Origin: Pseudomonadota bacterium
GTDB taxonomy: Bacteria > Pseudomonadota > Gammaproteobacteria > SURF-13
DNA length: 32,146 bases
Direction of reading: 5' to 3'
Assembly: GCA_027624315.1 (NCBI GenBank)
Contig: JAQBXX010000017.1
Span: 1-32,146, forward strand
Positions 2,717 through 26,810 of the stretch are shown here, piece after piece. The notes under the pieces are model-generated. The model did no database searches. It had not been told where the DNA came from and saw only the letters and a list, made by a program, of their open reading frames with translations. How positions within the stretch are numbered: position 1 is the first letter of the stretch; each line of letters opens with the position of its first letter. The position numbers were made by a program, and so were the translations under genes.

Positions 2717-3562
2717 ATGGCAAGACCACTACGCATAGAATTTGCAGGCGCGCTCTACCATGTCACCGCACGCGGCAATGCGCAGGCTGATATCTACGAT
2801 GACGATACTGACCGCCAGCAGTTTTTATCCTTGCTGCAAAATACAGTTGATCGCTTAGACTGGTATTACCATGCCTACTGCCTGATGGACAACCACTACC
2901 ATCTGTTAATTGAAACCAACTCTCCCACCTTGTCCAAGGGGATGAAGTTTCTCAATGGCACCTACACCCAATACTACAACCGGCAACACAAGCGCGTAGG
3001 CCACGTATTTCAGGGCCGTTTCAAAGCCATCCTCGTGCAAAAAGATTCCTACCTGCTCGAATTGGCGCGTTACATCGCCTTGAACCCGGTGCGTGCGCAC
3101 ATGGTGCGCAGCGCCAAAGACTGGCCGTGGAGCAGCTACCGCGCAACGGCCGGATACGAAGAAAATGCCGCCTGCCTCACCACGGACTGGGTACTCGCTG
3201 GCTTTGCCAAAACCAAAAAAATCGCCCAGCAACGCTATCGCGAGTTTGTACAACAAGGCAAAGGCTAGCCCCCACCCTGGCAAAAATTGAAAAACCAGAT
3301 TTATCTCGGTGATGATCAATTTGTGGAAGACATGCAATGCAAGCTTAACCCCGAGCAATCACTCAAAGACATTCCAAAAAAACAAAAGCAAGCCCCGGCT
3401 AAATCTTTGGCTTATTTTGAGAAGCGCTGTCAAAATCGAGACGAAAGCATGGTACAAGCATATTTGAGCGGGCACTACAGCCTTGAACAAGTGGGTAAGC
3501 ATTTTGGGGTAAGCTACGCAACAGTGAGCCGAGCGGTGAAGAAGGCGGAGGGAAGAGAATGA
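2717..3562 (+). pseudogene. REP-associated tyrosine transposase (RAYT), interrupted by one in-frame TAG
   Basis: Y1/HUH-type transposase related to TnpA of IS200/IS605 and thought to act on REP palindromes. The first part, to 3268, has the family N-terminus MARPLRIEFAGALYHVTARG, the metal-binding HUH motif NHYHLL (His60, His62) and the probable nucleophile Tyr119 in ELARYIALNPVRA. At 3266-3268 there is a TAG. The same frame then stays open through PPPWQKLKNQIYLGDDQFVEDMQ (read in two parts) to 3562 and ends in a helix-turn-helix, YSLEQVGKHFGVSYATVSR. Full-length family members carry this C-terminal section, so the gene appears whole except for a single amber codon. It may be a nonsense pseudogene, a functional short transposase plus a separate C-terminal ORF from ATG 3287, or a readthrough gene. 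Confidence 0.85.
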
Positions 3563-3570
3563 TGGGTTTG

Positions 3571-3778
3571 CGAACGGTGCGGGCTTGTGGGATGTCAAAT
3601 GTAAGGCCTGACCCCAGTGTTTTGTTCGGACCCCAGTGTTTTCGTGACCCCAGTGTTTTCGCAGTGTTTTCTCGCAGTGTTTTCTCGTGTTTTCTCGCAG
3701 CAGTGTTTTCTCGCAGTGTTTTCTCGAACGGTGCGGGCTTGTGGGATGTCAAATGTAAGGCCTGACCCCAGTGTTTTG
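3571..3778. repeat. 54-bp direct repeat containing right-hand copies of the RAYT inverted repeat
   Basis: Positions 3571-3624 and 3725-3778 are identical over 54 bp, beginning CGAACGGTGCGGGCTTGTGG. Each contains the 24-nt unit (3592-3615 and 3746-3769) in the orientation opposite to the copy at 2642-2665. The second copy looks like a duplication of the element's right end. Confidence 0.9.
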
Positions 3779-3808
3779 ACCCCAGCAGTGTTTTGACCCC
3801 AGTGTTTT
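3611..3808. repeat. Degenerate GTGTTTT tract, 11 copies
   Basis: Units of the forms ACCCCAGTGTTTT and CAGTGTTTTCTCG recur: eight GTGTTTT cores in about 3617-3726 and three more in 3771-3804. Unit spacing varies (roughly 12-18 bp), so this is not a clean tandem repeat. It looks like reiterated fragments of the right end of the RAYT-associated sequence. Confidence 0.8.
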
Positions 3809-5558: not shown

Positions 5559-5610
5559 AAAACGCAGTCACATGTCTTCGCATCGAGGCCATAATGCTTG
5601 ATTAAAAACT

Positions 5611-5690
5611 TCAACGCAAAGTCGCCAAGACGCAAAGATTTTTATTAACATAAATTTGGTGTTCTCTGCGTCTTGGCGACTTTGCGTTGA
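5611..5690. repeat. Long palindromic element, copy 1 (cysS-gltX gap)
   Basis: Left arm 5611-5634 and right arm 5667-5690 are perfect 24-bp reverse complements, with a 32-nt AT-rich spacer; the left arm begins TCAACGCAAAGTCGCCAAGA. A related copy lies at 26664-26792 between pheS and pheT. The right half and its flank (5650-5698) match that copy over about 50 nt with few differences, so the two share ancestry. Confidence 0.95.
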
Positions 5691-5717
5691 GTATTTGTAG
5701 AGAACAGGCATCCCACC

Positions 5718-22140: not shown

Positions 22141-22215
22141 AGGCGCGTAGCTCAGTGGTAGAGCACTACCTTGACATGGTAGTGGTCGGTGGTTCGATCC
22201 CACTCGCGCCTACCA
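22141..22215 (+). tRNA. tRNA-Val (anticodon GAC)
   Basis: A 75-nt tRNA with acceptor AGGCGCG/CGCGCCT, D-arm TAGCTCAGTGG, anticodon stem CTACC/GGTAG around loop TTGACAT (anticodon GAC), T-arm GGTTCGATCC, and encoded ACCA. It lies 96 nt upstream of thrS. Confidence 0.97.
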
Positions 22216-22230
22216 TCTAAACCCAGTCAC

Positions 22231-22303
22231 GAGTAGCGAGTGACGAGTAGCGAGTAACTGATAAAATGCCCCCTAGCCACTCGCCACTCGCCACTCGCCA
22301 CTA
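22231..22303. repeat. Facing heptamer arrays in the thrS leader
   Basis: Four head-to-tail heptamers GAGTAGC, GAGTGAC, GAGTAGC, GAGTAAC (22231-22258), then 17 bp, then GCCACTC three times and GCCACTA (22276-22303). The second array is the reverse complement type (GAGTGGC) of the first, so the two can pair imperfectly into one large hairpin ending 8 nt before the thrS ATG. Confidence 0.95.
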
Positions 22304-22311
22304 CCTTTAAT

Positions 22312-24237
22312 ATGCCCACAATCACCCTTCCCGACGGCAGCCAGCGCGAATTTCTGCAGCCCGTCAGCATCAAGGACATCGCCGCGTCGATCGGCGCGGG
22401 GCTGGCCAAGGCGGCGCTGGCCGCCAAAGTGGACGGCACGCTGGTGGATACCTCGTATCTGCTCGATCACGACGCCAGCGTCGCCATCATCACCGACAAG
22501 GGCGCGGAGGCGCTCGATGTCGTGCGTCACTCCACCGCGCACCTGCTCGCGCAGGCGGTGAAGGAGTTATTCCCCAAGGCGCAGGTGACCATCGGCCCGG
22601 TGATTGAAGACGGCTTTTATTACGACTTCGCCTTCGAGCACCGCTTCACCCCGGAAGACCTCGCCGCCATCGAAGCCAAGATGCAGGCACTCGCGGCGCG
22701 CGACTTGCCGGTGTCGCGCTCGGTGCTGTCACGCGAGGAGGCGATCACATTTTTCCGTGGCCTGGGCGAGGAATACAAGGCGCAGATCATCGAGGGCATT
22801 CCGGCGCACGAACAGCTTTCGCTGTACCAGCAAGGCGACTTTATCGACCTTTGCCGTGGCCCGCATGTGCCCAGCACCGGCAAACTCAAGGCCTTCAAAC
22901 TCATGAAACTGGCCGGCGCCTACTGGCGCGGCGACTCCAAAAACGAGATGCTGCAGCGCATCTACGGCACGGCCTGGCTCAACGAGAAAGACCTCAAGGC
23001 CTATCTGCACCGCCTGGAGGAAGCCGAAAAACGCGATCATCGCAAGCTCGCGCGCCAGCTCGACCTGTTTCATTTGCAGGAGGAGGCGCCGGGCATGGTG
23101 TTCTGGCACGACAATGGCTGGCGCATCTATCAAGAAGTGGAAAACTACATCCGCGTGCTGCTGCGCCAGCATGGTTATCAGGAGATTCGCACCCCGCAGA
23201 TGGTGGATCGCAGCCTGTGGGAAAAATCGGGACACTGGGACAAGTTCAAGGAACTGATGTTCACCACCGAGTCGGAGAAACGCGATTATGCAGTGAAGCC
23301 CATGAACTGCCCGTGCCACGTGCAAATCTACAACCAGGGTCTGAAGAGTTACCGCGACCTCCCCCTGCGCCTGGCCGAGTTCGGCTCCTGCCACCGCAAC
23401 GAACCCTCCGGCACGCTGCACGGCCTCATGCGTCTGCGCAACTTCGTGCAGGATGACGCGCACATCTTCTGCACCGAAGCGCAAATCCAGCCCGAGGTGT
23501 CGGCCTTCATCGATCTGCTGTTTCAGGTCTACGCGGACTTCGGCTTCAAGGACATTCTCATCAAGCTCTCCACCCGCCCGCCGAACCGCGTGGGCGCGGA
23601 CGAGGTATGGGACAAGGCCGAGCATGCGCTGGAACAGGCGCTCAACGCCAAACAGCTGCCGTGGGACTTGCAGCCCGGTGAAGGCGCGTTCTACGGCCCC
23701 AAGATCGAGTTCTCGCTCAAGGACAGCATCGGGCGCGTGTGGCAGTGCGGCACCATTCAAGTGGATTTCTCCATGCCGGGCCGCCTCGGGGCGCACTACA
23801 TCGCGGAAGACGGCTCCAAGCAGGTGCCGGTGATGCTGCATCGCGCCATACTGGGTTCACTCGAGCGTTTCATCGGCATTCTCATCGAAGACTGCGCGGG
23901 CAACCTGCCACCGTGGCTGGCGCCGACACAGGCGGTGGTCATGAATATCACCGACAATCAAGCAGGTTACGTAAAAAAATGCACGGAAATCCTGCTAAAA
24001 CAGGGATTAAGGGTCAAATCGGACTTGAGAAATGAGAAGATAGGCTTTAAAATCCGTGATCACACGATTCAGCGCGTCCCTTACCTGTTGGTGATAGGTG
24101 ACCGCGAAGTGGAAAATGACACCGTGGCCGTGCGCACGCGAAGCGGTAAAGACCTGGGAACGATGTCACTCCAAGCCTTTACGGATCGGATAACCTCCGA
24201 CATCGCGCGCCGCGGTCTTGCAGTTTTGGAGGATTAG
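22312..24237 (+). CDS. thrS: Threonyl-tRNA synthetase
   Basis: Class II synthetase charging tRNA-Thr. It is 641 residues (E. coli 642). Order: TGS domain (1-60); editing domain with HSTAH (His73, His77) and [10 protein letters not shown]; catalytic core with the zinc cysteine in [10 protein letters not shown] and motif 2 in [28 protein letters not shown]; and a C-terminal anticodon-binding domain. The ATG at 22312 gives the family start [10 protein letters not shown]. No good Shine-Dalgarno is visible because repeat arrays fill the leader. In E. coli thrS is autoregulated through its leader; whether the different structure here does that is unknown. It heads the thrS-infC-rpmI-rplT-pheST-ihfA block. 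Confidence 0.97.
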
Positions 24238-25384: not shown

Positions 25385-25407
25385 TAGATTGTTGGAAAAG
25401 GACATCC

Positions 25408-25482
25408 ATGGCCTTTCCCAACACGCAAAGCAAAAAATGTGATTTTTACTTTGCTCCATTTCTCAAACACTTGCGTGTTTGA
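25408..25482 (+). CDS. Candidate phenylalanine-rich leader peptide of pheST
   Basis: A 24-codon ORF starting at ATG 25408 with AAGGA 5 nt upstream, a good ribosome-binding site. It has four Phe codons, at residues 3, 13, 15 and 18, the last three clustered in DFYFAPF. It ends at TGA 25480-25482 inside a 15-bp hairpin (25456-25489). A strong intrinsic terminator follows before pheS. Position and content are analogous to pheM of E. coli (a Phe-rich leader peptide between rplT and pheS), but the peptide is longer and its sequence differs. The phenylalanine content is seen directly; the regulatory role is inferred. Confidence 0.55.
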   Translation: MAFPNTQSKKCDFYFAPFLKHLRV

Positions 25483-25548
25483 GAAATGGCGGTACATCCC
25501 TGTACCGCACCGCAGTTTATTGAAAAACGGAGTTTTTCAACAAACTGC
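25456..25548 (+). promoter_or_regulatory. Series of three leader hairpins upstream of pheS
   Basis: Hairpin 1: 15-bp perfect stem, 25456-25470 with 25475-25489, loop TTGC, overlapping the end of the leader ORF. Hairpin 2: GCGGTACA (25489-25496), loop TCCC, TGTACCGC (25501-25508). Hairpin 3: GCAGTTT (25512-25518) and TTGAAAAAC (25520-25528), loop GGA, GTTTTTCAA (25532-25540) and AAACTGC (25542-25548), with one A-C mismatch. The stalling of a ribosome at Phe codons 13-18 would block the 5' arm of hairpin 1. Confidence 0.7.
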
Positions 25549-25574
25549 TAACACACGCGGACATACCATGTCAG

Positions 25575-25612
25575 ATAGGGGAAAGGCCGCATGGCCTTTC
25601 CCCTATTTTTTT
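25575..25612 (+). terminator. Intrinsic terminator / attenuator directly ahead of pheS
   Basis: A perfect 14-bp stem, ATAGGGGAAAGGCC (25575-25588) with its complement at 25593-25606, loop GCAT, followed by a run of seven T (25606-25612). The pheS ribosome-binding site starts 4 nt later. GGCCTTTCCC at 25410-25419, inside the leader ORF, is complementary to 25579-25588 and could compete with the terminator stem. Confidence 0.85.
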
Positions 25613-25631
25613 ATGAAGGGGGCAAACCTAG

Positions 25632-26654
<1,023 letters not shown>

Positions 26655-26663
26655 AGCCACTTA

Positions 26664-26792
26664 ACGCAAAGACGCCAAGACGCAAAGGATTAAGGTTAAA
26701 AATAATTTTCTCGTGCTGGCGCGCGCATGCGGATGCTGGTCTTGGAAAAACTCATAAATATGATGTTCTTTGCGTCTTGGCGTCTTTGCGTT
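26664..26792. repeat. Long palindromic element, copy 2 (inside pheST)
   Basis: Left arm 26664-26688 and right arm 26768-26792 are perfect 25-bp reverse complements around a 79-nt spacer; the left arm begins AACGCAAAGACGCCAAGACG. It separates pheS and pheT by 156 bp. Compared with copy 1 (5611-5690), the arms differ at one base pair (T-A there, A-T here), changed on both sides so pairing is kept. Confidence 0.95.
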
Positions 26793-26810
26793 GAGCATTT
26801 AGGATAAACA

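Follow-up and report, generated by a model that had tools for sequence, protein, structure and literature searches.

Facing heptamer arrays in the thrS leader of a gammaproteobacterium: a probable member of a mobile hairpin family associated with S23 genes

The facing heptamer arrays that precede thrS in a gammaproteobacterium of the SURF-13 lineage (assembly GCA_027624315.1, contig JAQBXX010000017.1) are best explained as a copy, lacking S23, within a mobile family of heptad hairpins, whose S23-bearing form is an array-S23-array cassette and in whose spread S23 would help; we assign this reading a probability of roughly 0.6. S23 (PF05635) is the four-helix-bundle protein of 23S rRNA intervening sequences (IVS). 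Membership of the arrays in a mobile family of facing-heptad hairpins is, taken by itself, highly probable. The hairpins are dispersed through the genome, lie in gene junctions, have been gained as extra DNA, replace one another's words between relatives and enclose S23 genes, and array-S23-array behaves as a unit of exchange.

The window is the whole stretch analysed, 32,146 nucleotides long. Its genome (G000) comprises 1.43 Mb in 53 contigs, and G000 to G005 belong to one GTDB family.

The hairpin between tRNA-Val and thrS

The features of the site, from the upstream neighbour to the gene, are as follows.

22141..22216, + strand: tRNA-Val(GAC), the upstream neighbour (Rfam tRNA, 69 bits; ARAGORN, tRNA-Val gac)
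22224..22230, + strand: CAGTCAC, a fifth, degenerate outer unit before the left array (from the sequence; a CAG-type first unit is the commonest in related copies)
22231..22258, + strand: left array, GAGTAGC GAGTGAC GAGTAGC GAGTAAC, four units of GAGTRRC (from the sequence; period of 7 by TRF)
22259..22275, no strand: 17-nt loop, varying between sites without conservation (from the sequence and the comparison of copies)
22276..22303, - strand: right array facing the left one, three units of GCCACTC, then GCCACTA (from the sequence; period of 7 by TRF)
22304..22311, + strand: AT-rich spacer ccTTTAAT from the last unit to the start codon, without a Shine-Dalgarno sequence (the motif TnTTTAAT is common to family copies)
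22312..24237, + strand: thrS, ATG at 22312 (Pfam tRNA-synt_2b, HGTP_anticodon, tRNA_SAD and TGS)

An earlier note on this DNA had described four heptamers facing four, 17 nt apart and ending 8 nt before the thrS ATG; the description is accurate, refined by the outer CAGTCAC and by the A that ends the last right unit. A repeat search of the window yields facing arms of 24-37 nt with 76-88% complementarity. The leader RNA, whose folding the note had proposed as a check, forms a stable hairpin (-33.1 kcal/mol, compared with -13.9 ± 2.8 for shuffled sequences; z = -6.8, with 0 of 200 shuffles as stable). With such arms (24-37 nt) and such a fold (z = -6.8), the element has the long-stem terminal hairpin typical of 23S rRNA IVS. 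It also has the facing 7-nt arrays that define the S23/heptad cassette family (a name coined here), and its word matches that of the S23 cassette resident in the same genome, with its GAGTTGC/TAGTAGC arms.

The thrS leader of E. coli contains an operator, a short hairpin upstream of the start codon with CGT in a loop of 7-9 nt. No hairpin of this type was found in the thrS leader of the window, where the gap holds the heptad hairpin alone; any CGT-loop hairpin of this leader (22217-22311) has been lost to the heptad element. To note, a crude test detected a short hairpin with a CGT loop in 11 of 66 other thrS leaders (e.g., L015, L019, L035 and L088), possibly the tRNA-Thr-like operator of E. 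coli. The closest named relatives of the ThrS protein among the matches kept are gammaproteobacterial, at 74-76% identity.

Dispersal, placement and turnover of the hairpins

The two-unit word GAGTRRCGAGTRRC has 43 matches in G000 as compared to one for a reversed-pattern control, which answers the search for further GAGTRRC arrays that the earlier note had called for. A 141-nt query stretch has 44 matches; merged by position, the matches in this genome fall at ~33 places, in both orientations and within a common outer frame, and the family copies have inverted ends (TTAAAnACAG...CTGTnTTTAA). Among the 37 genomes searched, the word occurs 43, 25, 8, 34, 2 and 4 times in G000, G001, G002, G003, G004 and G005, respectively, and only once or twice in 3 of 31 genomes outside this GTDB family. 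The dominant word varies from genome to genome. Three word families are distinguished: A (GAGTRRC), B (AAGATAC/AAGAGAA) and C (ACGCMAAG, an octamer).

Family C, in which ACGCMAAG faces CTTKGCGT, fills two junctions of the window, cysS/gltX (5559-5717) and pheS/pheT (26655-26810), and its word has 47 two-unit matches in G000 and 0-6 in five relatives. Family C behaves like the heptad families in G000, yet no link of it to S23 was found, which counts against the role proposed for S23. The gap before pheS (25385-25631) harbors several perfect hairpins within 247 nt.

Placement was read from a codon-usage gene caller made for this analysis, with tRNAs from ARAGORN, so junction lengths may err by some codons. 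Typically, the two arms directly adjoin the flanking genes, the first arm at the end of the upstream gene and the second at the start of the downstream one. The 135 gaps with A, B or C comprise 126 co-directional, 7 convergent and 2 divergent ones, vs. 86, 11 and 24 of 121 other gaps (Fisher p = 2e-6 for co-directional and 5e-7 for divergent). Stop codons are present in the GAGTRRC units, and the first unit of an A array often starts within the end of the upstream gene; the B units have no stops and B arms usually start past the upstream stop codon. The loci of these gaps were selected for their elements; in unselected stretches, hairpins are less frequent and occupy 7 of 129 co-directional gaps of at least 60 nt on contig C2 of G001 and 14 of 100 on nine contigs of G002. 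The corresponding figure for the window is 3 of 9. Insertion into site-specific slots was considered, as different words do share one gap, yet with hairpins in about a third of the window's gaps of this kind shared slots need not mean targeted insertion. In 38 of 65 gaps, 5-9 nt separate the final A unit from the start codon, with TnTTTAAT as a motif. Of the genes that follow an A or B hairpin, 12 of 105 have a Shine-Dalgarno sequence, vs. 132 of 491 others; the arrays do stand in place of the ribosome-binding site, as the earlier note had it.

The pheS/pheT junction measures 156 nt in G000 and is a 4-nt overlap in G001. Further filled and unfilled junctions measure 171 vs. -1, 170 vs. 6 and 210 vs. 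7 nt, and other genomes provide similar pairs (136 nt in G004 vs. -11 and -38; 140 nt in G005 vs. -4). Because the hairpin-filled junctions overlap or abut in relatives, DNA has been gained. The gains leave out "empty" junctions that hold another word or an ORF-internal array (e.g., G000 C1:30669 vs. G001; G003 C14:39130 vs. G004). Against mobility, neither an insertion event nor a target-site duplication was observed in the pairs of filled and empty junctions.

Words are also replaced in place. Where both members of an orthologous pair have a family hairpin (59 pairs), the family is the same in 29 and different in 30, and unit counts are unequal between orthologous copies. The thrS junction itself carries A in G000 and G003, B in G002, G004 and G005, and neither in G001, despite 94% identity of the thrS DNA between G000 and G002. 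At another site, L229 (G002 C62:67515), a further heptad word is found, GGGACTA/GAGACTG facing AGCCCCT, where G000 (C20:36262) has an A hairpin. The ~33 genomic places, the junction gain and the exchange of words between relatives support the mobile repeat family that the earlier note had suggested.

S23 genes and exchange of the cassette

The loop of one A hairpin of G000 contains an ORF, as does that of the B hairpin at the corresponding position in G004; this ORF matches PF05635 (23S_rRNA_IVP, 3.5e-32) and the structure of XCC0516 (PDB ID 2gsc, E = 2e-12). An S23 gene lies at this place, upstream of tRNA-Gln, in all six family genomes (G000-G005), with a second one in G004; by inspection, all seven are located between 7-nt arrays. 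The second S23 gene of G004 (L266, C4:26093) has flanks with another heptad word, GTGAGGS.

Beyond the family, PF05635 is present in 57 of 274 genomes from Gammaproteobacteria and 62 of 398 from Pseudomonadota, in none of 14 controls, and on 20 plasmid records, mostly cyanobacterial with the addition of Riemerella and Gemmatirosa, of which 14 stretches were fetched. The S23 ORFs were placed by HMM at 79 loci, 78 of them with usable flanks, and 73 remained after de-duplication and a flank length filter; these are from Pseudomonadota and from plasmids of cyanobacteria and others, and their effective number is below 73 because one genus, with a single word, contributes several of them. At lag 7, the best match over 35 nt has a mean of 0.69 on either flank of these loci, whereas the 438 control windows average 0.38; the means at lag 14 are 0.69 and 0.70, and the other lags between 3 and 15 are flat. 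The facing score of the flanks has a median of 36, whereas the direct orientation yields 15 and the 423 displaced windows used as controls yield 16; it exceeds the control 99% level at 54 of 73 loci. An earlier control with swapped partners, in which 26 of 78 loci exceeded the 99% level, was replaced by displaced windows because many loci have similar words.

A 7-nt periodic and/or facing signature, defined as a facing score above the control 95% level or a match of 0.65 or more at lag 7 on either flank (the latter being reached by 17 of 423 control windows), is found at 66 of 73 S23 loci. The seven loci without it are L293, L295, L296, L302, L332, L338 and L346, the Gemmatirosa locus among them. 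The flanking words differ by locus, with examples such as GTAGGCA, GGGARTA, AAGGGCC, TAACTGA, GTGAGGC and AAGGTTT.

On plasmids, 11 of the 12 S23 loci with both neighbours annotated lie between two same-strand genes, including cas6/cas4 and cas10/cmr3. S23 is thus found within CRISPR-cas operons of cyanobacterial plasmids, as cas6/S23/cas4 at L335 and L344 and as cas10/S23/cmr3 at L340. This may explain the CRISPR-linked listing of S23 in PMC10910872, where "23S rRNA IVP" is spelled out in a figure legend on CRISPR-linked proteins.

Comparison of the cassette upstream of tRNA-Gln between genomes reveals a mosaic. The S23 proteins of G002 and G005, which belong to different genera and both have B arms, are 90% identical over 86 amino acids, vs. 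59% for G000 and G002, of the same genus. At the DNA level, G002 and G000 share 92% identity in the upstream gene (presumably rpsI, judging from its sequence), 62% in S23 and 100% in tRNA-Gln; G002 and G005 share 77% in the upstream gene, 82-88% in the arrays and 86% in S23; and G003 and G005 share 93% upstream and 64% in S23. The breakpoints of identity are at or near the arrays. As read from these sequences, array-S23-array has been exchanged between lineages as one unit, possibly by homologous recombination with very short tracts.

In one genus, the abundance of arrays is associated with S23, with exceptions. Among its 61 genomes, the 48 with S23 have a median of 26.5 matches to GTAGKSA arrays vs. 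8 in the 13 without (p = 3e-4), and at least 20 matches occur in 28 of 48 vs. 2 of 13. Against a simple S23 rule, 9 of the 13 genomes without S23 still have GTAGKSA matches. In four of the six genomes of the window's family, S23 is flanked by whichever of the words A and B is commoner in that genome. The exceptions are G001 and G003, whose S23 arms are AAGTRRC-like and AAGGGAA-like, respectively; on contig C2 of G001, pairs of AAGTRRC have one match and those of GAGTRRC nine.

In the mechanism proposed here, copies would settle in the junction of two co-directional genes, here tRNA-Val and thrS, with their arms abutting both, and would bring their own AT-rich start context, displacing the native leader. 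The gene-bearing form would be array-S23 gene-array, and the thrS copy its non-autonomous form. S23 would recognise the heptad arms and help hairpins to spread in trans, a role as mobility factor that we propose tentatively. Cleavage of the long stem by RNase III, as in the Coxiella IVS (PMC4990558), might explain why copies within transcripts are tolerated.

Alternative readings, known systems and meaning

Short dispersed intergenic hairpins are also a feature of the REP/REPIN/BIME repeats moved by RAYT transposases, and REP-type hairpins are likewise found in such junctions. The window harbors a Y1 (IS200-like, RAYT-type) transposase gene at 2717-3268, followed by a tandem repeat, TGACCCCAGTGTTTTCG, at 3609-3808. 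The hairpins might therefore be REP/REPIN-like repeats moved by Y1 transposases such as this one, S23 being merely cargo, and Y1 transposases are indeed present in 19 of 23 genomes checked, four of them in G000. This reading is unlikely: the four genomes without Y1 (G002, G076, G322 and G330) carry heptad arrays or S23 cassettes, the array adjoining the Y1 gene of the window is a different repeat, and the arms consist of unmirrored tandem 7-mers whose word and unit number change, and not of a single conserved palindrome. The copies also resemble MITEs, being small, gene-less and dispersed with inverted ends, but differ from them by a loop that is not conserved between sites and by arms that are arrays, and no transposase or target duplication was identified for them.

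Selection for RNA elements, be they leader regulators, RNase III processing sites or mRNA stabilisers between cistrons, is similarly improbable. The stable fold and the placement between stop and start codons are in its favor, as are a junction occupancy that is conserved while words change and the cutting of the related Coxiella stem by RNase III (PMC4990558). Many orthologous junctions, however, have no array at all, and Rfam matches above the gathering threshold in the window are tRNAs alone, with none for the heptad hairpin. In 57 A gaps with both arms, the unit numbers of the two arms are uncorrelated (r = 0.03), and at degenerate positions the arms match as well when swapped between loci (0.59) as within a locus (0.61), which leaves mirror-copying of the arms without support. 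Mismatches in gene sense comprise 217 of G.U type vs. 204 of A.C type over the three families (A, 85 vs. 111; B, 74 vs. 52; C, 58 vs. 41), without a clear excess. Since G.U is not clearly above A.C and the arms are not mirrored, selection for fine pairing in the sense transcript is not apparent, which speaks against a leader switch but would leave cutting by RNase III unhindered. A regulator specific to thrS is weakened by the same observations and by the presence of A, B or neither at thrS in relatives. The length-variable regulator of the earlier note has little in its favor beyond unit counts that differ between orthologous copies, given uncorrelated arm counts, the lack of wobble bias and a thrS copy that is absent or of another word in relatives.

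Intrinsic terminators sharing a word by happenstance are very unlikely. A short T-rich stretch does follow the stem, and the hairpins are never common between divergent genes. Convergent gaps, however, are not enriched (7/135 vs. 11/121), the T stretch is short and broken, and some copies separate tRNA-Gly from tRNA-Thr or precede tRNA-Trp. Finally, chance duplication or simple slippage at thrS, to which the varying number of period-7 units might point, is refuted by a word present at ~33 places in both orientations within a common outer frame, and the grounds named for it in the earlier note, an invariant count and no other arrays, fail because many other arrays exist in the genome.

The reading as a mobile hairpin family with S23-bearing cassettes has several relatives in the literature. 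The 23S rRNA IVS of Coxiella burnetii has heptamers (GACAGAT) before the S23p ORF, in a strain-dependent copy number, a 28-bp terminal stem and excision by RNase III, and S23/IVP proteins are described there as having no known function (PMC4990558). It shares with the elements described here the long-stem hairpin and the heptamers, and its S23 ORF lies inside, as in the cassette of G000. The thrS copy differs in its position between tRNA-Val and thrS, outside 23S rRNA, and, as compared to S23-bearing IVS, in its 17-nt loop without S23 and in being one of tens of junction copies. Also, the arrays here face each other, an arrangement not described for the Coxiella heptamers in the accessible part of PMC4990558. 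The thrS element resembles an IVS or a REP in how it works; because both a 23S rRNA location and a single palindrome were tested for and are lacking, it is filed neither as an IVS nor as a REP.

Two Xanthomonas genomes contain 186 and 183 arrays of GGGAATC, with 70 and 75 facing pairs; these are intergenic, often of four units, few between divergent genes and different between species, with similar ones in Nostoc, and the literature on heptamer over-representation in bacteria is said to be little (PMC4692102). They resemble the arrays here as intergenic 7-mers in facing pairs, few at divergent genes, and differ from those at thrS by their word and by having been studied as G-quadruplexes; the term "four helix" is not present in the accessible text of PMC4692102. 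In Beggiatoaceae, TAACTGA forms mostly direct arrays just before start codons, with one indirect set and rare Shine-Dalgarno sequences, and has been proposed as the site of a post-transcriptional regulator (PMC4679880). The position before start codons and the rarity of Shine-Dalgarno sequences are shared, whereas the thrS arrays have another word and face each other, which sets them apart from these direct repeats. TAACTGA itself flanks S23 at L276. In the literature covered, which leaves aside most subscription journals and preprints, no description joining S23 and facing heptad arrays at junctions was found, the sole partial link being the heptamers upstream of S23p in Coxiella (PMC4990558).

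More tentatively still than the role of S23 in trans, these elements may form an unrecognised class of mobile element, in which S23/IVP proteins would act on facing 7-nt arrays and carry them, whether accompanied by the S23 gene or not, into gene junctions, tRNA operons and 23S rRNA without a known transposase. Its traces would then include the heptamer arrays known from Xanthomonas, Nostoc, Beggiatoaceae and others as well as IVS, and each S23 allele would move along with the word on which it acts. Since the S23 gene usually lies between the same kind of facing arrays, two old puzzles may be one system. The hairpins can enter tight junctions of essential genes, such as pheS/pheT and thrS, and provide a new start context there. 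The location of S23 between facing heptad arrays in several phyla ties the question of the S23/IVP proteins to that of the heptamers, and both become testable.
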